Source: Siphonodentalium dalli
Lineage: Eukaryota > Mollusca > Scaphopoda > Gadilida > Siphonodentaliidae
Length of the DNA stretch: 64,000 nt
Assembly (NCBI GenBank): GCA_032622095.1
Contig: CP136063.1
Coordinates: forward strand, 23,748,987-23,812,986
Reading direction: 5' to 3'
Part shown: positions 7,222-54,600 of the stretch, piece by piece
How positions within the stretch are numbered: position 1 is the stretch's first letter
How the letters are laid out: every line of letters starts with the position of its first letter
The notes under the pieces: generated by a model
What the model was told of the DNA's origin: nothing
Seen by the model: only the letters and a program-made list of their open reading frames with translations
Databases searched by the model: none
Position numbers and translations under genes: made by a program

Positions 7222-9640
7222 CATATAGTCCAGTGCATTTATGAGAAAAATGTGCCAAAACTAATTGCAACAAAATGTGTCTTAGCAGGAATAAGTCTAT
7301 TAACCCAATGTAAACAACATACTAAAAATAAAAAAAGGATCAAGAGTGGCGAATGTGATAAATAATGTGAAATAAATTTGTCAAAATTTGGTGAAATACT
7401 CAATTTATGGCTTTCCAAATATGTTTATAAAACAAACTCCATTTCACAAGTTCTTCCATTTATATATCCTTTTGTTCAGTACACAATTCTGATTACAGAA
7501 CAAAAAATATTTTTCAGAGACGTTGAGTATTTTTCGAGTTATGTGCCTCCAAAATTGGGAGTTTGTCTAATTTCGGAGCCTCAATTTCTACTAAAATCCA
7601 TATTTTGTGGTCTAGTATTTTAAAAACTGGAGAAAAATGAAGGAATATCTTGCTGTTGTATTAGTTTCCTCACTGTAGTGTGCACGAACAAAATATTAAT
7701 TTATGCTTTGATCGAGAAGATAAAACTATTCTTAAACAAAATGTGTGGTCCATTGTATGGACTTGCCTTGTGACAAATCACTGGTATAATTAAATACCAC
7801 ATTATAGGTCATACAACGCAATAAATTGATATATATGGCCTGTATTTCTCATAACCTCTCATGTATTCTAGGGTAAATACACTGTGCTGGAATTGCTAAA
7901 CACATGTGTCACAACCAACTTATGGCCCTATGAATCCTTAGTATTGACTTTTTTCCAACGATTGTCATTTTTGGACTTTTTGTCCATATTTAATATTTTT
8001 GTTTTACACAAATAGTAAACAACAATGAGTACAATTAGTGTTTAATGTGTAAACTCATTTCAACGTTCCTCATAAAACGTGCTAACGTGTTGGCAATATA
8101 GGATTACATTGGTTATGCCAATCAACAGTAACTGGATTTCACATATTCTTCAAGAAACTGTCTCCAAATTTTTACGTTGATAATGGAGTAGGTGAAATCC
8201 CAAAAGGCTATGATCTTGCCACCATATTCTGGTCATTGGAGACAAAGGGTTGTTTTATTCCACTTTGTGCAGATAATTCTTGCATAATGGAAAGTTTAAT
8301 ACTTTACTGGAGGTTGATTTAGGACTTTATGGGCATGTTATATAGGACAACAAAAATGATCGCAGCTCCAAATATGAACATCGGGACAGGAAGTAGTATA
8401 TACTGTATAACATAATAAGGTTTGTAGGAGCTGGTGATAGTAAAGTTTTCAAAGTCAAGATCCATGTGTTCTGAGATTTTGTCAAAATGGTTTCCAATAT
8501 AAGGCTATTACTAAAGTGTATTAGGAGGAAAGTTCAAATGATTTTACAAACTATACGCACATTGTTTTTACTATTTATACACAGAAACCTTTAAAGATTG
8601 ATTTTATCTTTATATAACAAATTTGAAATAGTTGCGTGGGTATAAAATAATAAATATGAATTGAAGACCACGGAAAGGCTTCAGTCAATTAATATTGATT
8701 GTATTTCGAATATTTTAATATGAAATGAGATGATTAATTGGGACACTTTATTTGCCTATTTTTAGAACGGACCATTCACGCGATACCATATGGCGATAGA
8801 TAGCATTAGCCTGTTCCTATAACTGCGTACCGAACGTCAAGTGTCTCAGATTGATTGAATGTATTGTTTTATTCCGTAGTTATAAGCGACAATGAGACTA
8901 ATTAACGTTTATATAAACATAGGCAAATAAGCCTGAAGGAATATTTAGAAAAGGGTCAATACTAGGATTCGTAGAGCTATTAGTTGATTTTCTACGTCAT
9001 GATTGTGTGTTTAACCATGTATACTTAAGTGATTATGAGAAATACAGGGAATATGAATATATATAATTATTATGTCGTATGACCTCAAATAAGCTATTTC
9101 ATATACAATGGAACACAGATTTTGTTTAAGAATATTGTTGTCTTCTCAATCATAGATGCATAAAGAAATCATTTTTGTGCACACGGAAATTACTAAAACA
9201 TGATATAGCTTCATTTGTCTTTAGTTTTTAATATACAATACCATACAAAAAATTGATTTTAACTAATTTTGAGAAATTGAGGCTCTGGAATTAGATAAAC
9301 TCTCAATTGTTTAGGCAGATAACTCTAAATATACTCAACATATCTGGGTAAGGTTTGTTCTGTAATCAGGATTGTGTACTCTACAAACTGGATATACAAA
9401 TGGAAGTCCCTTTGAAATAAAGTTGTTTTCATAAACATTCTTTAATAGCCATAAATTGAGTATTTTACCAAATGTTGACATATGTATTTCACAAAATTCA
9501 TCAATTTCGCCTTTGTTGGTTCTGTTTTATTTTTAGTATGTCGTTTGTGATGGGATAGAGTACATATTCCTATTTCCACTGAGAAAATTTGTGTTGCAAT
9601 TAGTTTGAGGTGAAACCATAAATACACTGGACTAATATAA
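7222..9640. mobile_element. Foldback region, ~0.4-kb inverted arms
   Basis: The left arm at about 7222-7600 is complementary to about 9245-9640. Examples are ACATACTAAAAATAAAA at 7319 against its complement near 9535, and CAGTACACAATTCTGATTACAG near 7477 against the complement near 9365. The arms keep partial peptide similarity (HTKNK, KLIAT, YTILITEQ), which suggests they came from one coding segment, now broken. The interior contains a copy of the palindromic family seen at 42-48 kb (8587-8960). Confidence 0.6.
8587..8960 (+). repeat. Palindromic-family repeat copy 1
   Basis: GCGTGGGTATAAAATAAT, TTTCGAATATTTT, GGACCATTC and TATAAGCGA(C/T)AATGAG occur in the same order as in the reverse complement of 43370-43690 and of 46205-46580. 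The level of identity indicates a shared mobile family. No coding capacity is seen. Confidence 0.75.
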
Positions 9641-14869: not shown

Positions 14870-14946
14870 GTCCGTTCGCACCTCTGTTGGGTCTGTTTAC
14901 ACCTCTGTTGGGTCTGTTCGCACCTCTGTTGGGTCTGTTCACACCT
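14870..14946 (+). repeat. 21-bp minisatellite touching the stop codon of the fibrinogen-domain gene
   Basis: The unit CTGTTGGGTCTGTTCGCACC, about 21 bp, repeats roughly 3.5 times. The last unit overlaps the final codons and TGA stop (14939-14941) of the minus-strand gene, so the array forms the start of its 3' UTR. Confidence 0.85.
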
Positions 14947-15570
14947 CGCGTACTAGCATTGTCGTCTCCATCATTGATGCCACAGACAAGTCTTTATTCC
15001 AGATCATTCCCAAATTGGCTACCCAATCACCGTCCGTTATGTTCAGATACCTTCCGTTCAGATTGCTATCAAGGCAATTATTGTACCACCAGCCGCCTTC
15101 TTGAAAGATTGCACAATTGCCTCCAGCCATGTCGTTGTCACTGTTGAATGTAGTGAATTTCATTCCATTGTGATAGGTCAAAGAATCGCCAGCGGTACCA
15201 GAGTAACCCCCAACGTTCAGAATGAAATAGGTGGATGCGTCTCCAACACTGAATGCGGAATATCTCGCGAAATATTTGTTTCCAAGTGGGGTTGTGAGCT
15301 TGATGTACAACTCGCTCTGTTTGTTGATAATTAGTTTGTGAATCCAATCCAGACCAAGCCAGTAGTTACCATCACACTTGTCGCCGAAGCCTGTGGCGTA
15401 ATCAGACCAGCTCCGATAGAAGCCCACACTTCCGGTGTTCCGTTGTTGGACAACAGTCCAGCCTCCACCCGCTGTCGTCTGATCACATAAAACGTTTAGT
15501 TGTGTGTCGTTCAGTTGAATGGTATACATACCACTGGCCGTGTACCCAGAATCAAGTAGAGTCTTACAAT
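14939..15570 (-). CDS. Exon 4: complete fibrinogen C-terminal domain
   Basis: Acceptor TTTCAG at 15571-15576, then Asp-Cys-Lys in phase 1, 209 further codons and TGA. The length of about 210 residues is normal for a fibrinogen C domain. Key features are GGGWTV, KCDGNYWLGL, the SDNDM calcium-site segment and GNCAIFQEGGWWYNNC. Whole domain on one exon with no break. Confidence 0.9.
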
Positions 15571-18500
15571 CTGAAATGTGCAATATTATATGAAAATTAT
15601 TGATTCTGGTGCATCTCAGTAAAATGTTCAAGCGTGTTAGAACAATAGCACTATTTAATATGATGCAATTGACTGAATATGAGACCACATTAGTCGATAG
15701 GATCATCATCAATTAAACTATTGCATGATGCTGACTTCAGTAATCTGTATCGAACGAATCACTTGACAGACGGCGTTGTGTATCTTTACCAACAACACGT
15801 CATAATATGAGTCATAAAACGGCGTTGTCAGATTTAGGATGGGAACAAAGATCTATATAACGTGGTGTTTTATTTGACTGAACAATTACTCCACTGCACG
15901 GATATATCACCAACCTTCGAAGGCAACTGCTAAACTTGTACAATTTAATCAATCACATTTTAACACCCATTTGTGCGTATCACAAATTCGCACATATCGG
16001 GATGGAATCATTTTCGCCGTCGTAAACTTGCCCTGTGACACGAGCCAGCTTTTCCATCGTGTAGCGGCTTGCGTTGGCCGAGTGTTATTGAATGAAACTG
16101 ACCTTGTGCTGATTGGTCCGGAATCGTTGTGTTGCACTCAGTGAGATCTGGGGTGGTCGTCTGCGGATGTGTGGTAGATGGATGCACTGTAAAATTAACA
16201 TGACGCTTGAATGGACCCAAAGCCTTCGAAGTGACACAAAACTGTGTAAAACAACTATCATCAAAAATACCAGAATAGATGCATGTAGATTGACCATGTA
16301 CTTATAATAACTCATCAATAATGAGATTCGGATATCAAGTCCGCTGTCATATAAACATGTGGTTGCAGATTAATTACAGATAAAGGTCCAATTTATCCAA
16401 TAAGATACCAGTTTTTTTCAAAGCATGACGGTAAACATTGGGAAAATGTCAAAGCATTGACAAATCATATTCAGACTAACTTTTTAACTTACTATGCTAC
16501 ATGTTTCGCGATATTTGTTAATAAATCACTTTACAAGTTTGTGTTACATAACAATGATTTCAACTACCGAAAGTTAGTCATTGAATAACTATCAATACAG
16601 AACAGACTGTATCTATTTCTCCCATGTTCTTCTGAGTGGTGCTGTTTTTTTTATTTTATTTCATTTGTAAATGTACTTACATCGAGTGCATTGGGTCCCT
16701 TTAGTTATATACTGACATTTTTATAGTTAATTTGGGAGATATATCTTGGAAGTATTCGCTGATTGGAACATAACACTTTGCGTCGTTTAAATTATTATCG
16801 TCCCAATTAGTATTTCGGTTCTATTGCGTTAATTAGTGTATTATACATTATACGACCGTCACATTTTCACTTCGTTCGTATATATGCATATGTATATCGA
16901 ATACGTTACTCTACAGTTCCAATAACTGTTAATCTTGCGGTATTTAATTGCAATACCTGAATCATTGGGTTACGCGTTCATGTAGGTCTCAGAAATGTCC
17001 GAAGATGTTGACATGCAGTCATAACTCATTCTGTTGATTGTATGATTGTCGGTAGTAATACGTGCTAATAATAAGTGTGATTGGCGGCGTATATAGGTCT
17101 TCCTAAAGATTCGTATTTTTGTATGGCCGCACGTAGAACAAAACACTGTCTATCGTGCTTTTTTCCGTTACATTAACCGAACTGGTTATCGCTAATAATT
17201 TGGTTTGCATTCAGATAAGTAGCTAATCAGTCATTGATTATTTTATTGAAAAGTTTTCCCACTGATGAGCTAATGGCTATAGCACGATAATTGTTTGGCT
17301 CGTAATTGGTCCTTTTTGTGTATTGCTTTGACCAGTCGGGCGGATAAATTCCCGATATATAAATAACATTAAACAATTTCACAAAGTCGTCGATCAGTAT
17401 GGGGACAGTTTGTTTTAGTAAGTCATTTGAGATTTGGTCAGGTCAAACAGCTTTAGCACGTTTCAGTTGTCTAACGACTTTAAGTATCTCATCTGCCGTA
17501 ATAGTTTTGTCATTTATAGGAATCAATGTGCCATTAGTTTTAATATATTTTTTCTGTAAGAGTGCGTAGTGGAAATTTGGACCAATACAGTTCCTTAAAG
17601 AAGTCAACCGCATCATCCGCATTCGGTCCCCTCAAAATGTCTCTCTTTCTGTCGTAACTTTGTAACTATCTTCCAACAATCTCGGGGGGTTTCAATGTCC
17701 AGTTTATCAGGAGTGTTATAACGCTCTGCATAACATGTGTTGTTATAACGCTCTGCATAACATGTGTTGTTATAACGCTCTGCATAACATGTGTTGTTAT
17801 AACGCTCTGCATAACATGTGTTGTTATAACGCTCTGCATAACATGTGTTGTTATAACGCTCTGCATAACATGTGTTGTTATAACGCTCTGCATAACATGT
17901 GTTGTTATAACGCTCTGCATAACATGTGTTGTTATAACGCTCTGCATAACATGTGTTGTTATAACGCTCTGCATAACATGTGTTGTTATAACGCTCTGCA
18001 TAACATGTGTTGTTATAACGCTCTGCATAACATGTTTTGTTATAACGCTCTGCATAACATGTGTTGTTATAACGCTCTGCATAACATGTGTTGTTATAAC
18101 GCTCTGCATAACATGTGTTGTTATAACGCTCTTCATAACATGTGTTGCGATTGTTATAACGCTCTTCATAACATGTGTTGCGATTGTTATAACGCTCTTC
18201 ATAACATGTGTTGCGATTGCGTTTTAGTTCCCATGTTTAGTATTAAGCTATCTCATTCTTAATCTGTCATCATTTGGATGTTTCCGCATGTTTTTAATTG
18301 TAAAATCAAGATATCGTTAGCACCTATTGTCAAACCATTTCTTTCTACACGGTATGTATCCACGTTTAATCCTTTTAACTGAACATAAATTTGTATTTAC
18401 CTGAGAGATTATATTCAATAAGTCACTTGCGGCTTCCCGATCAACTTCGGGGTTTTTATTCCCAACTCAGTAACTGTTAACATGTTGGTTGTGATAATTT

Positions 18501-21500
18501 GTGAAGTTGTGTTTACTTCGAAAATACTGAACTCAGAACTGCTGAATCAGATGTGAATGGCAGATTCACATTTTAGCGAAGGTGGTGGCCGTGGGTCATA
18601 GACTTATATACCGGCTTATATATCGGCTTATATACCGGCTTATATACCGGCTTTTATCATGTCAACTGGTTGGATCGACCAATGAGGACGCTCCGTTGGT
18701 AGAAGCATATCAGGAGACATCGGGTCGTCATCTTTGTATCCCGTCCCATATGGAATCCATATGGGACGGGCTAGGTTCCCATATGGGGTCGATGTCCGCC
18801 ATTTTGCTTTAGTTAAATTAAATCACCACTTCAATTAAACATAATCTTGTATTTGTGTCGATGATCAATGAGCAATGCGTGAAAATCTGTCTGTGATTAC
18901 GAGGAAACTGATATGAGTACATTATTGCGAGCATTGTTGCTGATCAAACACGAAATACGCCCAAAATTATCTTCATAAGGGAACTAGTCCACTACTAATT
19001 CATAGGAATCAGGGAGCTAAATGTGTTCTAGAGTCGGGGAGCGAGTACACCGTGGAATGCTAAAGGTGAAGGTAACTTAAGAATGACCTTCACCTGATAC
19101 ATGCGACACGTTATTAAAGGATGACATCGCGTTTATTTGATTTGTACATCATATCTAAATAATTTAAACTGGTGAATGAATGGGGGAATGGATTTTTGTG
19201 AGCGGGAAATTTATTTAACTAGCTGCTGTAGTTCTGGGTTTTTCCAGATCAAATTTGGCTGTGGGATAGCCCTGTCGTACACTTGGGGATTTATTTTTAA
19301 AAGTAAACACATGACCTATGATTTTTCTTGCATTTTCGTGATCAACTGGTGTCAATCTAGCTGGGTAAACATCACTGGTATGGCCTGCAGGCTTCAATTC
19401 AGTGAATTTGGCCGAAACGTTAACACTGTCGCCAATGGGAAACCATTTAGTTCAGTGATTCCCACAGTTGCCATACAAAACACCAGCGCGAAATAATAGG
19501 ATTACCCCCCTTATACTGTACGTTGTAAACAAACGTCTGCTTTTCTACGGAAACCCATTTCGAGACTTGAATTTCTACATTCATTACAAACAAAATGAAA
19601 CGCTTCGCTTCCGCTTCAAACGAAGAAATCGAACAAAAACGAAGGTTGGTGCACTGCAGTAGTACCATAAGGGCAAACAATCAACATTCTAATTCTTTCA
19701 GAGAATATCTCACAGAAAAGTGCATGAATACAAATTTTGAAGAATTTGACAATGTTGCCCTCAATGAGGCCCTTGGTCATTTATATATCGATGCCAGGAA
19801 ACCTGATGGTGAACATTATAAGGCAAGTTCGCTAGAGAATATTCGACACAGCTTGAATAGGCATTTGAACACACCACCCCATGATAGGAAGGTAGACATC
19901 ATAAAGGATCCTGAATTTGCAGATTCAAATGCGAGCTTCAGAGCAGCTCTTGCCGAGTTGAAAAGACTTGGGCTAGGATCAACAGAGCATCATGCGATGA
20001 CCAATGCAGAAGACAGAAGACAGCTGTATAAGTCAATTTACATGAGGCCAACAACTCCATTTGGACTTTTCAATAAAGTTCAATATGATGTTCGACTCTA
20101 TTTCTTTAGGCGAGGACGGGAAAACATGAGAAATATGACAAAATCAACATTCGCCATCAAATATGACAACAAAACTGGATTGAAATACATCGTAAAAACA
20201 GAAGACGAGCTTACGAAAAATCACCGCGAAAGAGACCGGGAACTTGTCAGTGGGATTATGCCGGAGGTAAGAGGAAATCCATATTGCCCGGTTACCAGCT
20301 TTGAAAGTTATTTTGCAAAATTACACCCCGATTTCGAATTTCTATAGCAAAGACCACTGGACAGTTTTCAACCGGAGTCATTACGTGGTACTATAATAGT
20401 CCAGTTGGTGAAAAGACACTGGGTAGATTCATGACAGAATTGAGCAAAAAAGCCAAATTATCACAGATTTACTCCAATCACAGCATCAGAACCACAGGAG
20501 CCAGCATTTTGTCTGCAAACTCTTTTGGCGCAAGCCAAATAATGTCTGTAAGCGGACATAAGTCTGTTTCGTCTCTGTCTATTTATCAACGAGTCACCGA
20601 TGATGAAAAGCGACATATGGGACTGACACTAGCAAATGAGATGACAAAGGACACAGAGCATCCATATCATTTGGCATTACATTCCAGCACTGCTGCTATG
20701 CAATGAGATGAAAGCAATTGAGTTCCCTGTGCCAGCTCCTGGAAGTTCAATTTTAGTTCAAGGACTGGAGGTTGCGAACATTACTCCCCAAAAATCACCA
20801 ACCATGTTACAAGATTCTCATGATTTTGATCTCAATGAAGTTATTGAGTCTATGACTAGGCGAGATACGCATATATCACAGAATCACAGTCAAAAGGATG
20901 TAAAGATCTTTGCAGGAACGCTCCCTGTGTTCGACAATTGCACAATCCACAAAATCAGCATACAATTCAACAACAAATAAAAGAATCCTGACTCACCAAT
21001 AATTGTTCCAAATGTGACATTGTGACGGACTATCATGATGCACGCCATGTTGTCATAAATAATTACATTAAAAATGCCATTTATTCTGAGTATTTAGTTA
21101 TTTTCATTTCCAATTTTAGCTGCGAATAATTGAAAATCGCCGGCACAACGTCCTTGACATTCTCAAATCAATAATACAAACCAGCCCAGTGAAATCGCAA
21201 GTGGGCACGATTGATCCAGCAAGTGTGGGTGACATGATAAAATCGTTACAGGGCTCGTTGTTGCCGCTACGGTGACATATGAGGCTCAGGGAGATTAATA
21301 TCGGGCTCGGCTAGCGCCTCGCCCGATATTAATCTCACTTCGCCTCATATGTCACCGTATCCGGCAACAACTCGCCCTGTAACTTATAATATACCGGCTT
21401 ATATACCGGCTTATATACCGGCTTATATACCGCATTTGGCTGTGGACATGGGAATTTCAGGGATGACTATTCATCATCATCGTCATCTACACACAGTCCT

Positions 21501-30790: not shown

Positions 30791-31264
30791 TACATATATG
30801 TGACCCGCCATATCAAATCCAGTCGTAAGTCGGGATTGTTTTACCCTGTGCCAATGCATTCTCTTATATATGCGAGTCGACCATAGGTCGTCTCGCATAT
30901 ATAAGAGAATGCATTGGCGTAACAATTTTTTATCATTTTGTTTTAAATAAATGTTTCTTACAATTTTTAGGACATAAAATAAAAAACATCCATTACCCTG
31001 CAGGGAGCCCCACACATATATAGAAGCATATAGAAGAGTGTCGTCTGCTCATGTTTGTCTGGGGCTTTGTATGGGTGAAATTATAAAATTGTTAAAGAAT
31101 ACAAGAACAAATTATTAAAATTGTAAAAAATTGTTAGGCCAATGCATTCTCTTATATATGCGAGGCGACCTATGGTCGACTCGCATATATAAGAGAAGCA
31201 TTGGCACAGGGTAAAAAAAATCCCGACTTACGACTGGATTTGATATGGCGGGTCACATATGTGC
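30791..31264. mobile_element. MITE with ~126-bp terminal inverted repeats
   Basis: The left arm 30791-30916 starts ACATATATGTGACCCGCC and the right arm 31138-31264 is its reverse complement, differing at only a handful of positions. Each arm contains its own sub-hairpin around GCGAGTCGACC...GGTCG. The interior is about 220 bp and non-coding. A target duplication is not clear. Superfamily is not assigned. Confidence 0.9.
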
Positions 31265-32715: not shown

Positions 32716-34960
32716 TGCCTTCATTGAGCCACGAGTGACTCCTGAGACGAGGATCACATATTATATGATACCCTATCCTACGGAGGATCACATAGTGTTG
32801 ATATCTACACCCGTGCGCATGGCCTGCATATTATTACTTTTCGGCACTCAACTAGCAAAAAATGTGTACTAATCAAGCTGTGCCCAGGCCCATATAGCCG
32901 TCGATTCCGGCTAAAAATACCGACAAGATCATGCTCACGGTGAAAATATTCACTGACCCAACCCATTTTCCGTATAATTATTGTATATGTATTCCCGTAA
33001 ACTTATAACTGTTACAGTTAAAAATATTGTTATTCGTGTAAACTCCATATCCACTACAGTCATAAACACGGTTATTCACGTAAATTTAATACTAGTACAG
33101 TAGCAAATCCTTGCTATCGTGTAAACTTTATAATGTAAACCTTAACAGCCACCACCATAATTAATGAATGAATGAGATCGATCCATATAGTACCTGTAAT
33201 ACCTATGAGTCTACATCAAAATTATGGAATCGGAATCAATAATTATTGAATTCATATCTAATCGAGTAATGTTTAATTATGTAGTCATGTTACTTGTAAA
33301 CTTATTACTGTAACAGCAAAATATTGTAGTAAGTAGTAGAATATTTTTAAAAATATATATGTCCTTCAAGTTTTCTTAAAGCGAGACTATGTCAATTTCA
33401 ATAAATTCCCGTTAATTGTAACGATACAATATCGATATTTATAGACAAATCATTAACTTGAGTCGCATATGTCTTTTATAGATGCTCAGGTCAACAGGTT
33501 ATCTTTAAATCAAATTTATTAATTTAATATAGACTTTAATATAGACTTACTTTAAAGTAAGCCATAAACTAAGTTACGAATAATTTCCATGTAAAAGAAG
33601 TACTCAAATTAATGTAAATGGACAGTGCATTGAGCAACGCTTGGCACACATCGTGTAAAACATTATGTTGATAGGGGAGTGAAGTTCAGTGAACTCAATC
33701 CAATCACTGACCACACTAACATTAACAAGTATCTGGGACTATTGTGCATATAATATAACAATTATTTGATACATTTTCCTGAAAAAGTGTACACAAATAT
33801 ACCGTTGATGAGAGTTCTATTTTTGCATTCCGGCTTATCTGCCATTTCTAACATTTCTTCGTACTCAGCAGTTAGTCAAATAATGGAAATCATGTTACGT
33901 TATTCTACAAAGCGGAGCATGTAGAACACAACAACAGTGAGTAAATTATCCCTGTAAAGACATTGGCTTTTTTATAAATCGAATTGATTAAACAACGAAC
34001 ATGATAACTGTTTGAAAACATAACAGTACTTGAAAATCTCTTGCAATTTTTGGCTGGAGATGCCAAACGTGCGACAGCCCCTTAAATTGGCTATAATAAA
34101 ACACATTTTCGGTGTCAAACCATCATGTCCTGTATATTTGATGTTCATAATTGACCCATGGTTATAGAACTGTTTTCATTTTTCATGATGCTTGTCATAA
34201 TTTTCACAATTAAAGGCGAAAAGAACGTATGTTTGTTTTTTAATTTTGATTTATTTTAAATTCAATTGAATTTAAATTTAATTTAAAAATTTAATTGTGC
34301 AAGCTGTTCGATCAAAAAAATACAATATTTTAATTTAATTGTTTTTATTTAAAATTAAAATTATTATCTAAAATAAAAATGTTAAATTGAGCCAGGAGTC
34401 CAATCTAACGACAATCACAAATTTAATATAAATCAAAAATGAAATCAATTTTGAAATTATTTTTAAATCGAAATGCTTAAAATATCAATAAGTAAGAAAT
34501 TGAATAATTTAAGTAGATACCATGTCTATGAGCAACCCTAATCTCCTCCTAAATAATGATATTATTGAATTATATCAGTATGTGCGCCTAAATTATCAAC
34601 AATTTAATAAAGTATGACGTCATAACAAACAGTTCACACGATCAAATTGACCTGAACTCATAATTTGGCAGAACATTTATTTGTCAATTTTGATATAAAT
34701 TCATATTTACCTTTCTTGTCACACGTGCCACGCTGAGTAACGCTAGATGTGGCTTTAAAATTATTATTGAATATCTCCGACATACGTTCATGTGTCGCAA
34801 AACAAATAATTGGACGAGGAACTATCCCTACGATCTCTCACCATTTCATTTTTAAAACTAATGTATCTCTGACACGCATTCCTGTGTTTCAAAACATCTT
34901 AACCTGGCGTGGAATTGTTCCGGTGGTACGCCATAATTTAATGTTACAACTAAGTAATAA
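32716..34960. other. AT-rich stretch, no gene recognised
   Basis: Very AT-rich, especially 34230-34480. No supported coding region, RNA gene or array. Confidence 0.4.
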
Positions 34961-35405
34961 TAATAATAATAATAATAAATAGTTTTTATATAGCGCTTTA
35001 TCCCATATGGCCCAGAGCGCTTACATTCCTACTAGTACCCTGCCCTCTATCACACGTGATATACATACATCTATACACACCACATACCTATATATATACA
35101 CATACATCAAAATAATTAAACAACATCTGAGGTAGCTTCCCCATAGTGAGCACAGAATAATTCAGACTTTAACAAAGTTTTGAATTCGGTCAGAGAGTTT
35201 GCAAATCTTGTGTCGTGTCTCAGTGAGTTCCAAACATTTGGCGCATACGAATCAAATGCTCTATCGCCATAAGTTTTTAAATTTTTTGATGGAATATCCA
35301 TTAGAGCTTGTGCCTTTGACCTCAGATTCGTAGGTGGAACATACATACTTAAAAGTTTATCAAAATATTGAGGCAATACAGGGAGAATACTTGAACTAGA
35401 TTCTG
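34961..35405 (-). pseudogene. LINE 3' end (C terminus, 3' hairpin and ATT tail)
   Basis: The minus-strand frame 35376-35116 contains LLSMYVPPTNLRSKAQAL, LKTYGDRAFDSYAPNVWNSL and FKTLLKSELF, the usual C-terminal signature of CR1/L2-type LINE polyproteins. Beyond the stop lies a 3' UTR with AAGCGCT...GGGATAAAGCGCTATA, then an (ATT)n tail at 34961-34979. The 5' part is lost, as in typical 5'-truncated insertions. The same 3' terminus is found at 47086-47350. Confidence 0.85.
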
Positions 35406-35568
35406 ATTTTTTATAACAGAAGTAGATGTGACATACCTTCTGTGCTGATGATGAACAATCCCTGTAATATCTCGCAATTTAATTTTAGAACCTTAATAAT
35501 CTGACGTAGAATTGTCCATTGGAGAATAAACTGCAGCGAATCTGGTATAAACGTGGTGCGTAATGTGT

Positions 35569-40085: not shown

Positions 40086-42330
40086 TTACCATGAAGTTGA
40101 GAAAGGCGTTAATATCATAAATTGTATATATATATATATATCGCTAGTACCATGAGCCAAATGAGGCAAGATCATTTCGTTCGTTGAAAGACCGTCAATA
40201 ATAACATAGCATTCTACGCCATAACGATCAATGCTATCAAAACACATATTATTTCGTATTGTTGTCAGGGAACTGCATTCAATGAGTACGTGCTGTACTT
40301 TATCAAGATATGTTTTAAGAAAGTTAGGGCACTGGATTAGTGATTCGTTTAAGTACGTGGTTGCTTCGACCACAAGAGCTGTAGTTAGATAAGAATGTTT
40401 ATTATATGAGAATTTTCAACAGAGTAGCCAAAGATCAGACATGCTAAGGTTAGCATGTACATTCCGAAACCGATTGAATGATGTGTCCATGTCTGTTCTA
40501 ATTTTCCAATCTGACTCGGTTATGTTTCGAATATTGTTTCTCGTTAGCGCCTTCCATGACTCTTTCGATGGGAATAATCCAGACCTGATGTACTCATATA
40601 CTGCATTCGCCAGGTTGTGTTTCTCGAGTAATGAGAACACTTCGCTGATAAAAGTGGTTGTCGGGTTCAATGAGTAAATGTAATCAAACAGCCTAGTCTC
40701 AAAGATTGTTTTACATGCTTTTCCAGGCTTTAGTCGACAAAGGGATCCAAAGAGTGAAATCTTTCTGGCATCAATACTAACTTGAAGTGGGTATATTCCT
40801 AGCAGGCCAGTAACGACATCGGTTCTGCATCGGAAGGGTAGGCCTTGAATACGCTTCAAGCAAAATCTGTGAACTCTTTCAAGCTTGATAAAGTTTGAAT
40901 TTGATAAGCCAAAGAGAAATTCTGAACCGTGAAGTCCACGAGAAAGTACCACTGATTTATATATCACCGTTGAACTATGAGGTGTTATGCCTCCCGCGTA
41001 CATACCAGCAGTGCTTAACATAAGATATGTTGACCGAAGTTTTGAGCTAACACTTTCTGTAAGAGTATTTGGAAAGTCACTTTTATGCAATGGTATGCCC
41101 AGGTGCGTTATTGAATCAGTTTTGTTAACTGCTATGCCATTTAGCATCCATGAGCGATTGACGGAGGCATGTTTAGATTTCTCATTGAATATGATTACCT
41201 GACATTTCTGCTGGTTATACATATATCGCCATTGTTTACTGTAATGGCCACAAATATCCCATACTTTTTGTATGCCAAATGATGAAAAGAGAGAGGAGGG
41301 TCATATCGTCTGCCTGAGTTGGAGACGAGCAGTTGATACCTCGCAGCCTGAAACCAAAGTTCGATTGTTCGAGCTCACAGAGAAAACTATCTATGTAGAT
41401 GGCGTAGAAAATCGGAGCGAGGGTACTTCCCTGTCTTGTTCCTTGGTTGATAGGTATTATACGGGATGTAAGATTTTCGTGGCGTACAGTACAGTTCACA
41501 CCAGTAAAGAATTCGTTGAATAAACGTAGAACACCACAATTTGCTCCGCGTTGAAAAGTGTCTTGTAGAGAAGGCCATTGATCCAGACCGTATCAAATGC
41601 TTTGCGTACATCAAGAAAACACGTGAAGAGACGTGAATTATTTTCCTCTACATACGAAATGATTTCCTGAATTATGTATGATGACATAAGACAGCTTACG
41701 TGTTTTTGGAAACCGTGTTGTAGAATGAGCGTTTTTATCAGGTTAGGGTTGTTTCTCTCCGAGCGGTTCAGAATGATTCTTTCGAGTATTTTGTATATGA
41801 CTGGAAGTAGGGTGATGGCTCGGTAGCGGTCGGACTTTGATTTCGATTTGCTCCCTCCCTTGTACAACGACACAATAATACCAAGTTTAGCTTTTTTGGG
41901 AATATATGAAAAACGAAGCATATATGAGAACAGCTTTGCTAAGTGCATCTTTAAACGATGTCCACGATATACGATGTGTTCATAACATAATAAATCAGTG
42001 CCTGCAGCTTTGCCTGTTTTCAATGTTTTTATGACCGTTGTCAGTTCTTCCATGGACACAGAGTATGTTATTATGTCATCATATGACCCACGTTCGGGAT
42101 CATTTAAGAGAATAGACACGATTTCGTTAATATCGTTAAAGATAGAGTTGTCGAATTCGTCAAACCCAAGTGGGGGGTATAAAGTTTTATAATAATTTGC
42201 CCATGCATCAGTTATTTCATTGCGAGTTCTTATCGTGATGCCACCAACCTCAAAGATGCTGCTATTTGTTTCTTTTCGTTTAGATGTAACCGTGTTGAAT
42301 TTTCTAAAAAATTTCTAAAAACACTGGCGT
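40086..42330 (-). pseudogene. Decayed LINE retrotransposon, 5'-truncated
   Basis: The minus-strand reading follows GITIRTRNEITDAWANYYKT near 42240, then MEELTTVIKTLKTGKAAGTD (42055), LGIIVSLYKGG, YRAITLLPVIYKILERII, CFLDVRKAFDTVW (about 41590), TRQGSTLAPIFYAIYID (about 41430), and the active site QADDMTLLS (about 41320). It goes on through NQQKCQVIIF, THLGIPLH and SKESWKALTRNNI to a C-terminal QCPNFLKT...HVLIEC motif at 40300. Frameshifts near 41555 and 41275 and a stop at 40416 break it. The Ala-Asp-Asp catalytic pair is intact but preceded by Gln rather than Tyr or Phe. No endonuclease domain is present; the 5' limit abuts the palindromic repeat at 42420. Confidence 0.9.
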
Positions 42331-42419
42331 GTCTCGTCCAATATGACTTTTCACCGCAACCTGGACTCGTACAAGAAAAACACATACTGTACACAACATT
42401 GTATAATACATTACACATA

Positions 42420-43362
42420 CAATTTCTGATCTCTGTTAACAGTAACCAATAGTGTTCGTTAGCTAAACAACCACACGTTTAGACCAGAACATATTCGAAA
42501 TATAATCAATATTAATCGATAGAAGCATTTATGGACATGGGTCTTCGATTCATATCTAATCATTTGTAATTTTTAACAATGTTTAACAAAATGTTTTCAA
42601 AATTTGGTAAATGGTTTATAGGTCACAAAACACAGGTCAAGTTCGAAATTGGTCACGGTCCAATGATTTTGACGGGTTTATGCTCTCTTTTTTTTCCGAC
42701 TTCGAAATTGTATTCTTTTGTGTTTCTAAATGATAAGGTAATCAAACTTGAATCTCTTGTCGTTGTGTGTGCTGTCCACATTTAAGACCCACCGGATTAT
42801 CGTCAAGTTGGAATAAATTTTTATCGGTATTTGACTTCTTTGTCACAAAACGAAGCAACATATAATGCCCCAAAAAAGCCACATCTTTTAAGCGGACGTG
42901 GGATCGGCCAGCTTTTTATGTTCATACCTATATACCCAAATGGGCAACGCACAACGTCATTCTTATACATGCATAACTCACTCGTGCATATAATATCTTC
43001 ATGCGTTGGGGGAATAAACATTATCTCTCACTGACATGTTCTTGGCCATTTTGGCGTGAAAATAAGATATTGATACCATCATAATCAGGAGCGCATCGAG
43101 AGTCAAATATTGTAACCATATTACATACCGAACAAATCAAACTCAAATGAAAAACCGTTAAAGGTGGATTATCTCTTTGTAAGCATGTATTATATAGTTA
43201 CCGGGTTATAAAATATTAGATTTGAATCGAAGACTCCTGTCCGGAAATGCTTCTATCGATTAATATTAATTTTATTTCGAATATTTTCTGGTAAAAAGGT
43301 GTGTTTATTCAGCTAACGAACAATAGTGGTTACTGTTAACAGAGACCAGAAATTATATTGTG
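42420..43362. mobile_element. Palindromic-family foldback copy 2
   Basis: 42420-42575 (CTGTTAACAGTAACC, TTCGTTAGCT, CGATAGAAGCATTT, GGTCTTCGATTCA) is the reverse complement of about 43210-43362. The interior of about 630 bp contains open frames of 66-68 residues that I do not recognise. No transposase. Confidence 0.75.
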
Positions 43363-43690
43363 CAATTTTGTCACAAATAAACTTTAATTATACTCATTAT
43401 CGCTTATATCTGTGGAACAAAACAATACAAACAACCAATCTGTGACATTTGACATTCGTTGCGTCGCCGTAGGAACAGCCCAGTGCTCTATGTCGCAATA
43501 CTGTCTCATCCGAATGGTCGGTTCTAAAAATAGTAACATAAATGGGCCCGATTTAACATTCGAAATAAAATAAATATTAATTGATAGAAGCTTTTCCGGA
43601 CATAGGTCTTCAGTTCATATCTATTATTTTATACCCACGCAACTATTTAAAATTTGTTATTTAAAGAGATAATCCATCTTTAAAATCGTG
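43363..43690 (-). repeat. Palindromic-family repeat copy 3
   Basis: It continues directly from the right arm of copy 2 and runs through TCATTATCGCTTATA, GAACAAAACAATACAAACAA, CGAATGGTCGGTTCTAAAAA and AGAGATAATCCATCTTTAA. The same order is found at 46205-46580 and, inverted, at 8587-8960. Confidence 0.8.
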
Positions 43691-45520: not shown

Positions 45521-46204
45521 GTCATGCAATTCCTAACTCTACAACAAATCCTGGGTACGTTATAATAAGTGGCTGACGGATAATAAAGGGGAGTTATCGA
45601 TGTTGTTGGGATCCTCTACCATATTCAAAGTAAAGTATTGATTACTTGGTGTGGTATTGAAAACAACAGGTATTTATCTGGCGGTCCGCCTGGTAAATTA
45701 TAAAATTTGCAATAAATATATTTTTGAGAATTTTGTTCTGGAATTACATCATTTGACCCACATTTGAAAAATCATAATTGCATGGGCCCCGGACCCTTTC
45801 CCAAAATACCCAAGGGTTCTGATATCGGCGAAGCAGACACTTGTGTCCAATGTGAAGAAGGTGGTGGTGTGGTTAAAGCTTCCTTAAGACAACGATTCAA
45901 GACTCACTCCAATATGCGAGATGTGTACAAATTTAAGAGCGGTCTGACTCATGTTATTGCCAAGCCATTATGGCAAAACTAATAAAATTTGAAATAAAAG
46001 GTTACAAAATACAGTGCCTTAAGAGTTCATTTACAATATTAAATTCAGATAAACTGTATACATAGTATACATGTATAGAAAACACATTTAGGGCTATTAA
46101 TACTTTGTATCTTATGGGAATTCTTTTTTTAAATAATAAAAAAAAGGTTCCCCCCACCCTATTTTTTTGCCCTCCGTTACCGGAAACAAAGGTATTTTTT
46201 TTAG
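45521..46204. other. No gene recognised
   Basis: A 72-residue frame at 45764-45982 has no recognisable motif. Otherwise AT-rich. Confidence 0.4.
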
Positions 46205-46749
46205 GCCTAACGAACAATAGTGGTTACTGTTAACAGAGACCAGAAATTTTATTGTACAATTTTGTCACAAATAAACGTTAATTATACTCATTATCGCTTA
46301 TAACTATGGAACAAAACAATACAAACAATCAATCTGGTACATTTGACTTTCAGTGCGTAGCCATAGGAACATCCCAGTGCTCTATATCGCAATATGGTAT
46401 CATCCGAATGGTTTGTTCTAAAAATAGACACACACACGGTCCCGATTAAATATTTGAAATAAAATCAATATTAATTGATAAAAGCTTTTCCGGACATTGG
46501 TCTTCAGTTCATATTTATTATTTTATATCCACGCAACTATTTAAAATTTGTTATTTGAAGAGATAATCCATCTTTAATAAAAGTTAATTTAAGAAAACAA
46601 AAATTAAATCAATAGATATTTTGTTTTTAAAGATGGATCATCTCTTCACTATTTTAAATTAGTTTCGTGGATATAACGTAATCAATATGCATTGAAGACC
46701 CCTGTCCGGAAACACTTCTATCAATAAATTTTATTTTAAATATTTTATT
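46205..46749. repeat. Palindromic-family repeat copy 4, left part
   Basis: 46205-46580 matches 43320-43690 in the same direction. 46620-46749 then turns back as an inverted copy (AAAGATGGATCATCTC, GAAGACCCCTGTCCGGAAAC). Its continuation is found only after 47691, because a hAT-like element is inserted at 46750. Confidence 0.8.
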
Positions 46750-46776
46750 CACAGGGGCCTGTAACGCGCTTATTTT

Positions 46777-46926
46777 TTTACGATCCACGCAGCTCCTCGT
46801 GTTGATATTCATTACGACCTGACCTCGATTCTAATACTGAGCTGTGATTGGCTGTTTCTACCATGGCAGTCACGGAAAGGTCAGGTCATAATGAATATTA
46901 AAATGAGGAGCTGCGTGAATCGTAAA
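46777..46926. repeat. Hairpin inside the hAT-like element
   Basis: TTTACGATCCACGCAGCTCC...ATTCATTACGACCTGACC pairs with GGTCAGGTCATAATGAAT...GGAGCTGCGTGAATCGTAAA, arms of about 48 bp and a loop of about 55 bp. Confidence 0.9.
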
Positions 46927-47085
46927 CAAAAAATGAAAACAAAATTAGAATTATCGACAGATTTCGCCTCTATAAAAATAGTTTACTTACGATGTGTTGA
47001 TTTGTATGAGTAAATAAATTATTAGCCGACAAGTAATCACTAAGCTCCGGATATTTAGTTGATCGTTTGACCGATTGTTAATGAT

Positions 47086-47350
47086 AGTAATAATAATAAT
47101 AATATTTGTATAGCGCTTATCCCCAATAAGCGGGCCCTAAGCGCTTGACATAAACATAAAACAGAAATATAAATATACACAATATCAAAGTCACTTTCTG
47201 AAACGCCGCGCAAACAAGTAAGTTTTCAATGACTTTTTAAATTCGTCGAGAGATGGTGACTCTTTTATGTTCAATGGCAGAGGATTCCATGCATTTGCGC
47301 ATGTTACTTTGAAAGATGTATGGGTGGTGAAATTAAAGACACATACCGGC
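47086..47350 (-). pseudogene. LINE 3' end carried inside the hAT-like element
   Basis: The minus strand reads VFNFTTHTSFKVTCANAW then NPLPLNIKESPSLDEFKKSL and KTYLFARRF, a LINE C terminus. Its 3' UTR ends with AAGCGCTTAGGGCCC, GGGGATAAGCGCTATAC and an (ATT)n tail at 47086-47103. The terminus matches that at 34961-35060. It lies wholly within the hAT-like element's ends. Confidence 0.85.
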
Positions 47351-47691
47351 CATTGCTACTGAGCCGTATCTAACTGGGAATTTACGCTCTCCGGAGACAA
47401 TTATTCGGTGGTTAAACATTTATATGAATGGTTCTGATGGGAGTTTGTGGTATTGATTGAAAGATGAATTCTTCGCCGATACATCCGTGGCTATATCGTT
47501 AGCATCAGTGGGGTGAATGGGCTAAATTTATCCGATCGCCGTGTGATGGTAAAAAGATGAATATCTACAGTTACCCTTGTGTCAAGTATACTACCATTAT
47601 CGTGAAGCAGGTGCGTATATAGAAGCGGCGTATATGGGCAGCGCAACGGGGGTGGACAGCGGAGCGCGTTACAGGCACCTGTGATTTTATT

Positions 47692-47850
47692 ATAGAATGA
47701 GAAGATTAAATGGGACACTTTATTTTTCTATTGTTAGAACAGACCATTCGGGTGATACCATATAGTCATAGAGATCATTGCTCCCATAGCGACAATCCGA
47801 ACGTCAAATGTTGTTGTGACACAATCCCTGATTGCTTGTTCTGCTAAACA
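47692..47850 (+). repeat. Palindromic-family repeat copy 4, right part
   Basis: GGGACACTTTATTT, TAGAACAGACCATTCGGGTG and CGAACGTCAAATG continue the family in the order seen at 8735-8845. The join with 46749 is restored when the hAT-like element is left out. Confidence 0.8.
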
Positions 47851-48027: not shown

Positions 48028-49703
48028 ATGTTTCCTTTGTTCCAGATAGTCAAGCTGCTTGTACATCCCATACCCGGGAGTTATACCGGTTGTTCTATAT
48101 CGAGAACTGGCATTTACAAAGAACTTTCTATCTCTGGTCGGTCAAGTAGTATGTCTGCAATGGACAAAGTGAGAGTATTCGGTGACGTGTTGGAAAGCAG
48201 ACGACACATGAGCAGTATGGCCGCGGAGACTAAAACAACCAATGGTGGAGGATCGTTTGCTACTGATGGAGATAGCTGTTCGGCGGATGATGGGCTAGCA
48301 TTTGCTACCGATGGAGAAAGCTGTATGGTTGATGAGAAGATTCAAGATGTTATACATCAAATGGAAGCTAAGCCGGCTACCAAAGTAAAGCAGTCTTCGG
48401 AATTTGAGGGAAGAAAGAAACGAAGTTATCAGAAGCGATATCAGTGTGAGATGTGCCTTAAACGGTTCATACACCTCAGTTATAAGGAGAAACATATGAT
48501 GAGCCATACTGGGGAGAACAATTCCAATGTGACGTGTGTTTTAAAAGATTCACTATTGAGTGTCATCTGAAATCGCACATGAGGATCCATACAGGAGAAA
48601 AACCCTACCAGTGTGACGTCTGCCTTAAACGATTCACTGAAAGTAGTCATATGAAAACACATATGAGGATCCATACGGGAGAGAAACCACATCAGTGTGA
48701 TGTGTGCCTTAATCGATTCGCACAGTCTGGAAATCTGAAAACACACATGTTGTTCCACACTGGAGAGAAACTTTATAAGTGTGATGTGTGTCTTAAGATA
48801 TTCGCCTTAATCGCAGAATTAAAAAAACACACGAGGATCCACACGGGAGAGAAACCATATCAATGTGATGTGTGCCTTAAGAAGTTCACTGAGTCTGGTA
48901 ATCTGAAAACACACAGGAGGATCCATACGGGTGAGAAACCGTATGAATGTGATGTGTGTCTTAAGAAGTTCACAGAGTCTGGTTCTCTGAAAACACACCT
49001 AAGGATCCATACGGGAGAGAAACAATATGCGTGTGATGTGTGTCTTAAGAGTTTTGCTCAGTCTTCTGATCTTACAAAACACAAGATAATTCATACATAA
49101 GAGAAACGTTATCAGTGCGATTTGTGTTTCGTGAAATTCACAGCGTCTTGTAGACTGAAAACACACATGAGGATCCATACAGGAGATAAGCGCTATCAGT
49201 GTGATGTGTGTCTTAAGAAATTTAATCGGCCTGGCGATCTAAAACCCCACATGGTGACCCATACGGGAGAGAGGCCGTATCAATGTGATTTATGTCTCAA
49301 GACATTCACCCAGTCTGGTCACATGAAAACACACCGGAAAATACACGCGACGGAGAGACAGTATGGGTGTGATGTGTGCCTTAAGAGATTCACTTTGCCT
49401 GGTGGTCTGAAAACACACATGCGAAGCCATACAGGTGAGAAACCTTATGAGTGTGATGTGTGCCTTCAGAGATTTTCTCAGACTGGTGGTTTGAAAACAC
49501 ACAAACTGACACACACAGGACAAAAACCCTATCAGTGTGAGGTGTGTCATAAGACATTCTCATCTCATAAAATGAAAATACACATGAGAGTCCATACAGG
49601 GGAGAAACCATATAAGTGTGATGTTTGTCTAAAGCGATTTAATCAATCTAGTAATCTTAAACAACACATAAAGACCCACACAGGACTTAAACCGCCAGCG
49701 TGA
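48028..49703 (+). pseudogene. C2H2 zinc-finger protein gene, 15 fingers, broken twice
   Basis: Tandem classical C2H2 fingers of the CDVCLKRF type, each C-x2-C-x12-H-x3-H with HTGEKP(Y/H)QC linkers: a DNA-binding regulator in living form. A possible N-terminal region of about 80 residues starts with ATG at 48151 or 48160 and has two related FATDG(D/E)SC segments. Finger 1 begins YQCEMC at about 48441. A single A missing from GAGAA-CAATTCC at about 48517 shifts the frame within the linker to finger 2. A TAA at 49098-49100 replaces the Gly codon of the linker after finger 8. Seven more fingers follow in frame to TGA at 49701-49703. Finger 14 (CEVCHKTFSSHKMKIH) has one residue fewer between Cys and His. 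No intron is seen. CTTTGTTCCAG at about 48045 might be an acceptor. Confidence 0.85.
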
Positions 49704-51626: not shown

Positions 51627-54600
51627 CTAGACCCGATGGCACTAGAAATGTATTTCATGAATTCATCATTTCTAGTGCCGCACGGCCTGCCATACCCTGT
51701 GTAAAACTATCTATTTCACAACATTTTTCATCTAAACAATGAATGCTAGCCTTATTACCTCACCATATATTTTCAGTCGGTTCTCCCCGCCACAAGTTGA
51801 CGCCAAAAGTTCCCTGTGTCGGTGTATCTAAATCCTTTAATCGGACATTTCTAAATTGTCGAATATTGGTGACCCGGATAAGTCGTCCATCCTCACGTTC
51901 TTGTTGACATTTTACACAAGACCACGTGCTCGGAAGAACTACTGGGTAATTTACTACGTCCGGTTTGGCCTATAGTTCATTTCACGAATAACCGTTAACT
52001 GATTTCAAGATTTTATTGTCAGCAAACCATTACAACGGTGTGAGTGTGTAATACAATGAAACTATATAACATCCTAGTTGAACCAAGCGAACAATATAAC
52101 TTCTGTCTTGTGTATATACTATTACAGCATAGTGTTAAATGTTAGTAATTATGTAGGCCTTGAAGATTTACCTGCATATCTATAGCTAGGAAGGCCTACA
52201 TACAAAATCTCATTTTTTGGTATGTGGCTTTGTAGATGTTCGCCAATCGCCATGGCTGCATACATGTGTCATAGACATGATACCTATAAGTATTCATCGT
52301 ATTTTGTTTCTTTTTATTGGCTTGGTATGCAAACTGACATTAAATTGGACATTTTCGACAAATTTGTTGTTATATCGGACAATGAAATATTTAAGTCATC
52401 AAACTGGACGAAGGAACGATCACTAGATCGTATTGAACCATGCACGATGCTCAGCGACTGATAAGTTCACACCGACTGACATGCCCGCAGCAGTTTTTGT
52501 CTCAAATAAATTGTTATCAAAAGTTCAAAACACATATTTCTGGCCGAGAAATAAGCGGAGTAAGTGTGATCATCATTTATCCACGCACTTGACAAATGTG
52601 GACCTGGTTTCTATTCGACACAAGCATGGAACATTGATATAAATCTATAAGTTTCATTTTTGTCTAACAAACGGACAACTTTAATAGCTTCAAATTTTCG
52701 CGTGACGTCGATTTTTGATATTTTGAATCAGCAAAACAAAAATTACATATATCATTGAAAGATGCATCTCCTGAATATACGAGATATGAAGATCACTCCG
52801 TTTTATCCGGAAATGTATCTGCTAACCGATAAAACAATCTCACTTCTTATAATTTTCACTTTTAACAAATCGTGTGGTGGGTGAGAGACATCTCATTTTA
52901 GTGATTATGGGGTATAAAAGGACGTAAAAAAATCTCAATAGAACTATATAAGATGTTCATCGAGCGTTAGCTCATAACGCAAAACATAGACTGGTCAGTT
53001 TGGTTTTCTGACATTTACGACAATTTTGTCGCATAAAATAAATAAAAATACGATGAGAAACTGGAAATGTTTATGCACATTCCGGACGGGATATATTTGA
53101 GTTTTGTTGACATATAGCGAGCGTAAATCTAAAAAAAACAGTGCTGCGATCGCGAAAACTTTTCAGCTTGGTAGGCCTATTTCGTCATTTACAGATCGCT
53201 GTGTTTGGATACTTTCCGTCACAGAACGCAACATAAGCTCCATCCTGAGTTCAGTCTCCTACACATGACTTACCCTGCCAGCACCTACATGGAATGTGAA
53301 GCAATGTCGTATTTATTTATTTTAGAAGCAAATTTGATGCCTCCTATATACATATTTATTTTAGATTTGTGTAGGTTACAGCTAATTCTGCATTATTCTG
53401 AGAAACATAAATGTCCATATTCGTTTGAAAATGGTCTAGGTCAAGCCAGAATGAATTGTAACTGACAAAACACTTCTGTAAAAAAATATTTTATTTTAAA
53501 AAATACACGTGCAGCGTTAAGACTTCTCTTGGCGCGGTGACTGAACTCTGTCTGCAGCTTGAACGCAACAGTCAATAGTTATTCGTGAAATGGACTATAA
53601 GCCAAACCGGACGTAGTAAATTACCCAGTAGTTCTTCCGAGCACGTGGCCTTGTGTAAAATGTCAACAAGAACGTGAGGATGGACGACTTATCCGGGTCA
53701 CCAATATTCGACAGTTTAGAAATGTCCGATTAAAGGATTTAGATACACCGACACAGGGAACTTTTGGCGTCAACTTGTGGCGGGGAGTACCGACTGAAAA
53801 TATATGGTGAGGTAATAAGGCTAGCATTCATTGTTTAGATGAAAAATGTTGTGAAATAGATAGTTCTACACAGGGTATGGCCACAGGTACATGTAACAAA
53901 TATTTTATTACTTACTATAAAAAAAGAAAGGTATGCCATTCTGGCGGCCAAATTTAAATTTGGTTTGCCGCCTTGGCCGGCGGGGGTTAATCTGCACCGA
54001 TTTAATTCGGGTAAACGGCTAAATATACAATAACTTACGTATACATGCAGTACAATATGCGATTACCACTGCATATGTTGCTTATTTCCTTGTTCCAATC
54101 AAAAGTGTATGTATTTGATATCTTAGATGATTTTATATAAGTGACAAGTCAATATTTTGTCCGTATATTCACAGTGAATTGTAGCTGGCCGCTGATTGGT
54201 TGAAATAAAAAAATACCTCTTTATTTTTTTTCCGTATGTCACATGACTTTTGTTGATACACAAAACGACATGCTGTCAAATATGGACGCTCGAAGTTGCA
54301 ACCAGGAAGTAAGTTCAAATTTCCCGCAAATAATCCAGAAATAGCTCGGCCAATCGGTGAACATCAATAATTCACTGCGGGTTCAAGATGAAATACGGAT
54401 GGATTCCCGATCAAGGTGCAATGTTTTATCGTTGTAAACAGTTAGTAATACCAAATATTGTCAAATTCAAGCAGAGAGGGCACAAGGTAGCACATTTCGT
54501 ATACTAATGTGTTTTTTAACGTAAGTCATAAAACATTTTGCCATTTACCCGAACAAAATCGGTGCACATTAACTCCTACACGGCCGAATCAACAATGGCT

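Follow-up and report, generated by a model that had tools for sequence, protein, structure and literature searches.

A probable non-autonomous DNA transposon enclosing a LINE 3' end in one arm of a palindromic repeat of Siphonodentalium dalli

Introduction

The segment at 46750-47683 of the sequence analysed here, a stretch of 64,000 nucleotides from the scaphopod Siphonodentalium dalli (contig CP136063.1, 63% A+T, in the following called the window), has the ends of a DNA transposon, interrupts an older repeat and contains what looks like the tail of a LINE. This raises the question of what kind of transposon it is, and how the remains of a retroposon came to lie inside it. In the initial annotation it was interpreted as a hAT-like, non-autonomous element that carries a LINE 3' end and is split into an older repeat. 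Our analysis agrees that the element is non-autonomous, interrupts an older repeat and has a LINE 3' end inside it, but the hAT label is not settled. The element is real, the nest of mobile elements that it forms is of an ordinary kind, and at the centre of the nest there may be a short transposon family that is undescribed.

Ends of the element and the interrupted repeat

The following features define the borders of the element and its surroundings.

46188-46749, unstranded: host repeat to the left of the element, its palindrome beginning at 46339
46742-46749, unstranded: left copy of the target site duplication ATTTTATT, 8 bp, exact
46750-46770, plus strand: left terminal inverted repeat, 21 bp, inner palindrome ACAGG-GG-CCTGT
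46770-46933, unstranded: palindrome of 164 bp immediately inside the left end, self-complementary at 72% when gaps are allowed and at 88% in its outer arms of 56 nt
47663-47683, minus strand: right terminal inverted repeat, 21 bp, inner palindrome ACAGG-TG-CCTGT
47684-47691, unstranded: right copy of the target site duplication ATTTTATT, 8 bp, exact
47684-47811, unstranded: host repeat to the right of the element, from the alignment of the joined flanks

The element is 934 bp long, and its 21-bp terminal inverted repeats agree at 20 of 21 positions when 46750-46770 is compared with the reverse complement of 47663-47683. It starts with CACAGGGGCCTGTAACGCGCT at 46750 and its reverse complement starts with CACAGGTGCCTGTAACGCGCT; the short form of the end sequence is CACAGGKGCCTGTAACGCGC. 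The sole mismatch between the two ends is at position 7, G or T, and this variable base is one of the two central bases of a short palindrome, ACAGG-NG-CCTGT, that is present in each end. Immediately outside, ATTTTATT is found on both flanks, and the identity stops after exactly 8 bases with no extension on either side. The duplicated sequence is made of A and T only, and the site is A/T-rich.

When the flanks are joined with a single ATTTTATT, they align to a related repeat at 8590-8844 at 72.7%, with gaps elsewhere and none at the junction. This repeat copy is a paralogous empty site and not an allele. The initial annotation had stated that the ends match at 20 of 21 positions, that the 8-bp duplication is exact and that removal of the element restores the repeat as seen at 8.7 kb, and all of this is confirmed, the last point by the gap-free junction with the paralogue. 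The left flank has further relatives in the window; joined positions 588-977, which belong to it, match 43295-43683 at 89.5%, and it also matches 8912-8591 at 77%. Once joined, the host repeat forms a palindrome of about 530 bp (joined positions 739-1269, self-complementary at 68.6%), so that the element lies within one arm of an older repeat of the fold-back type. Several partial copies of this fold-back repeat family, with a length of about 530 bp, were observed in the window (8590-8912, 42412-42558 and 43158-43685).

A second palindrome is found within the element. It is 164 bp long and spans element positions 21-184, so that it overlaps the left end by one base. Comparison of the element with itself gave no comparable palindrome behind the right end, and there was no other copy of it within the window. 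TA flanks the core of the palindrome on both sides, and from these flanking dinucleotides it could be a separate and older miniature element of Tc1/mariner type with a TA duplication. Neither this palindrome nor the palindromic nature of the host repeat was part of the initial annotation.

Of the stop-free stretches with 40 codons or more, ten overlap the element (up to 82 aa in length), and no transposase was recognised among them with Pfam. Nine did not match any family at E up to 1, and the tenth had a sub-threshold match to Hydrophob_seed (E 0.03), which is unrelated to transposases; shorter stop-free stretches were judged by eye only. The earlier description of the element as non-autonomous is supported. 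Shared subterminal motifs were not found beyond chance: there were 5 shared 7-mers, and 5 or more were reached in 102 of 300 shuffles.

The LINE 3' end inside the element

On the minus strand the element contains a 5'-truncated LINE 3' end, in which a coding C terminus is followed by a 3' UTR bearing a hairpin and by an ATT tail. Its parts, and the copy used for comparison, are listed below.

47355-47194, minus strand: open C-terminal end of the LINE ORF, of which 47200-47316 is matched by the second LINE end
47113-47144, minus strand: hairpin of the LINE 3' UTR, GCGCTTA...TAAGCGC, placed by likeness to the second LINE end
47088-47103, minus strand: ATT-repeat tail, the 3' end of the LINE, read as TAATAAT on the plus strand
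47356-47662, unstranded: no similarity detected, either decayed LINE, body of the DNA element or both; the 5' break point of the LINE was not placed
34955-35478, minus strand: second LINE 3' end, the comparison copy, with C terminus, GCGC hairpin UTR and ATT tail in the same order

We compared 21 minus-strand peptides of the element, each at least 18 aa long, with the window. The C terminus matches the second LINE end at 35259-35143 with 14 of 39 residues identical (36%), which corresponds to an E of 8e-6 in the pairwise comparison and 0.004 across the window. Furthermore, the UTR and tail of the two LINE ends match at the nucleotide level (77%, E 1.8e-7), and a hairpin with GCGC arms precedes the tail at the same place in 34955-35060. 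Neither of the two hairpins is more stable than shuffled sequences (z -0.94 and 0.78), which means that the support for them comes from the similarity between the two copies and not from energy. A LINE C terminus, UTR and ATT tail had been assigned to the interior already in the initial annotation, and the comparison with 34955-35478 bears this out.

The C terminus of the LINE matched none of the Pfam families, and a search of the whole window against Rfam at gathering cut-offs gave no hits. Between the two sides of the LINE piece there was no target duplication beyond chance; the longest word common to both was 7 bp, which was equalled in 330 of 500 shuffles, with the 5' break point unplaced. 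Short or absent target duplications are common among L2/CR1-like LINEs. We take the piece to be L2/CR1-like because its C terminus and tail are of that style, and a predicted stem-loop of the kind present in L2-clade tails points in the same direction. In ZfL2-1 and ZfL2-2, L2-clade LINEs of the stringent type, a stem-loop in the 3' tail is described as being recognised by the LINE protein (PMC4176376). The likeness of the element's LINE piece to these two is the hairpin before the tail. The difference is that no RT domain was found in the fragment with Pfam.

Origin of the nested structure

It is rather likely that the locus is a non-autonomous cut-and-paste transposon in one arm of a palindromic repeat, with an L2/CR1-like LINE 3' end inserted into it. 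The matching ends, the 8-bp duplication and the fitting empty site argue for a cut-and-paste insertion, in which the transposon would have entered one arm of the older repeat and duplicated 8 bp of the target. Since no transposase was recognised inside the element, it most likely moved in trans, and probably it was mobilised by a hAT-type transposase encoded elsewhere. The LINE would have inserted into the element by target-primed reverse transcription, antisense to the plus strand, with only its 3' end left, and this may have happened before or after the element jumped to its present site. A 5'-truncated copy with a retained 3' tail is the usual product of target-primed reverse transcription. 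The initial annotation had left the choice between insertion of the LINE and its capture by the element; because the 3' tail is kept and the 5' part is missing, insertion is favoured, and capture during gap repair appears less likely.

It is conceivable, if somewhat improbable, that the LINE 3' end is instead an integral part of a multicopy transposon family, captured by or inserted into the founder and then amplified by the transposase, an explanation that overlaps with the preferred one. It would account for a LINE piece that lies wholly between the ends of an element with clear insertion hallmarks, and MER6 is a published precedent in which the body and tail of a SINE were amplified by a transposase (PMC6887750). 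Against it, only one copy of the element is found within the window, and a later insertion of the LINE into a resident element would look identical. MER6 is described as a mariner-derived MITE of mammals with the body and tail of a V-SINE, and it resembles the element in having DNA transposon ends around a retroposon piece that includes the tail (PMC6887750). It is however a multicopy Tc1/mariner element, with 50 MER6 and 50 MER6A copies sampled for a tree, and its passenger is therefore known to have been amplified (PMC6887750). The element differs from MER6 in that it carries a LINE instead of a SINE, probably belongs to another superfamily and is seen in one copy.

Taken further, the element may be one copy of a family in which the LINE 3' end, with its predicted RT-recognition hairpin and its tail, has become fixed in a cut-and-paste transposon, and this we regard as unlikely. 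If the LINE tail were fixed in the family, the transposase would spread LINE tails, and transcripts of such copies might template the LINE machinery in trans, which would give two mobility routes. MER6 is reported as an example of retroposon tails being carried and spread by a DNA transposon (PMC6887750), and a LINE piece common to many copies would make another case after it. With the preferred reading, a LINE inserted into a non-autonomous transposon, the single copy documents layered insertions, and its clean ends can be used to look through a genome for a short transposon family.

hAT or P

The hAT superfamily is a plausible home for the element, and hAT is put ahead of P. The hAT end consensus is YARNG, and the end of the element, CACAG, fits it at 4 of 5 positions, the third base being C where the consensus has a purine. 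In the description of hAT elements in PMC3942097 the terminal inverted repeats are 10-25 bp, the duplications are 8 bp and short non-autonomous copies keep conserved ends. The 21-bp repeat falls within this range, and the 8-bp duplication is of the length expected for hAT and likewise for P. The target preference given for Hermes is nTnnnnAn (PMC2803484); ATTTTATT has T at position 2 but also T at position 7, which is half of the pattern, at one site and with a preference that may differ between hAT groups. The designation as hAT-like in the initial annotation is thus plausible but unproven: the 8-bp duplication, the 21-bp ends and the CA start fit, but the third end base and half of the target pattern depart from it, and P elements also make 8-bp duplications.

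There is a smaller chance that the same architecture belongs to another superfamily that duplicates 8 bp, most plausibly P. The P elements and P-derived MITEs of Anopheles are reported to have 8-bp duplications (PMC1562414), a duplication of about 8 bp is attributed to P as well as to hAT (PMC3706591), and the end and target of the element agree only partly with hAT patterns. On the other hand, its 21-bp repeat is in the hAT range (PMC3942097) and is shorter than the 27-31 bp given for the Anopheles P elements (PMC1562414), in a comparison of lengths. The Anopheles P-MITEs are similar in their 8-bp duplications and non-autonomy, and their interior is described as unrelated to the transposase gene; the terminal inverted repeats of the parent P elements are the longer ones just mentioned (PMC1562414). 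The BuT2-derived hAT MITEs of Drosophila are alike in having short terminal inverted repeats, an 8-bp duplication and no transposase, and 24 short BuT2 copies measure 532-927 bp, to which the 934 bp of the element are close (PMC3942097). Unlike them, the element has an end that starts with CACAG, contains a LINE 3' end as well as a palindrome on one side only, and has no demonstrated autonomous relative.

Specificity of the ends

The 20-base end motif, searched for in the window with any base at position 7 and up to 3 mismatches, occurs at two places, both of which are the ends of the element, and shuffled sequences average 0.01. We also scanned the window for inverted ends with at least 20 of 21 matches, 60-3000 bp apart and flanked by an exact 8-bp duplication; the element was the one pair obtained, and there was none in 20 simulated windows (first-order Markov). 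A chance pairing of the ends was thus rejected. With the local composition, 8 bases at fixed positions would agree exactly with a probability of about 4e-5, so the duplication is weak by itself and the case for an element rests on the ends. That the ends and the duplication are coincidental, with no element at all, can safely be dismissed, for although the duplication is A/T-only in an A/T-rich site, the G+C-rich ends, the duplication and the fit to the empty site are concordant and the simulations contain no such pair.

With looser settings (the first 12 bases, at most 2 mismatches and an exact 8-bp duplication) the scan of the window gave five pairs, the element included. The pair at 30916-31140 and two nested pairs at 42442-43333 were rejected as insertion duplications, because their duplications are identical or almost identical to their own reverse complement and continue into longer inverted repeats. 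The fifth pair is at 53905-54451. The segment at 30916-31140, 225 bp with long inverted ends (AGAGAATGCATTGG...), is a candidate for a miniature inverted-repeat element. What looks like its 8-bp duplication is a palindrome that belongs to the inverted repeat. The one at 42442-43333 is about 0.9 kb, also with long inverted ends (TCTCTGTTAACAGTAACCA...), and encloses fragments of the fold-back repeat.

The end motif was also searched for in viral, prokaryote and plasmid DNA. A 17-base piece of it had one hit in IMG/VR, in GC-rich DNA, which was judged to be chance, the rest of the element matching there by 11-base words only. The LINE C terminus gave 23 pattern matches in IMG/VR, and none of these was confirmed. 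No match was found in plasmids. In 257 Gb of prokaryote genomes the 20-base motif was hit once, against 1.9 hits expected. The hit is an exact motif at 673-692 of a MAG contig (L002), the frames of which appear bacterial on inspection by eye; a second end was not found there. A 15-base word of the element is found at 764-778 of the same contig, in the same order and orientation relative to the motif, 91 bases from it as compared to 232 in the element, and when the 100 bases tested were shuffled 2000 times, such a match was reached once. Because little else matches, we take this hit to be chance; the shared word speaks against chance and is unexplained.

Other features of the window

Two long frames at 40416-42314 on the minus strand are probably parts of one non-LTR retrotransposon. 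The frame at 41496-42314 matches RVT_1 (E 9.7e-10), and that at 40416-41300 matched no Pfam family. At 17613-18262 there is a tandem array with long frames open on both strands, the unit of which is about 27 bp as judged from the repeated peptide. It was also possible to observe two overlapping frames on the plus strand at 19571-20706, the first with weak matches to QRICH1 and DUF3504 below the curated cut-offs; we presume that these frames could be a Crypton-like tyrosine recombinase. In its A+T content and coding features the window has the look of animal DNA: a frame with a fibrinogen domain is located at 14939-15712, and C2H2 zinc fingers are encoded at 48486-49100.
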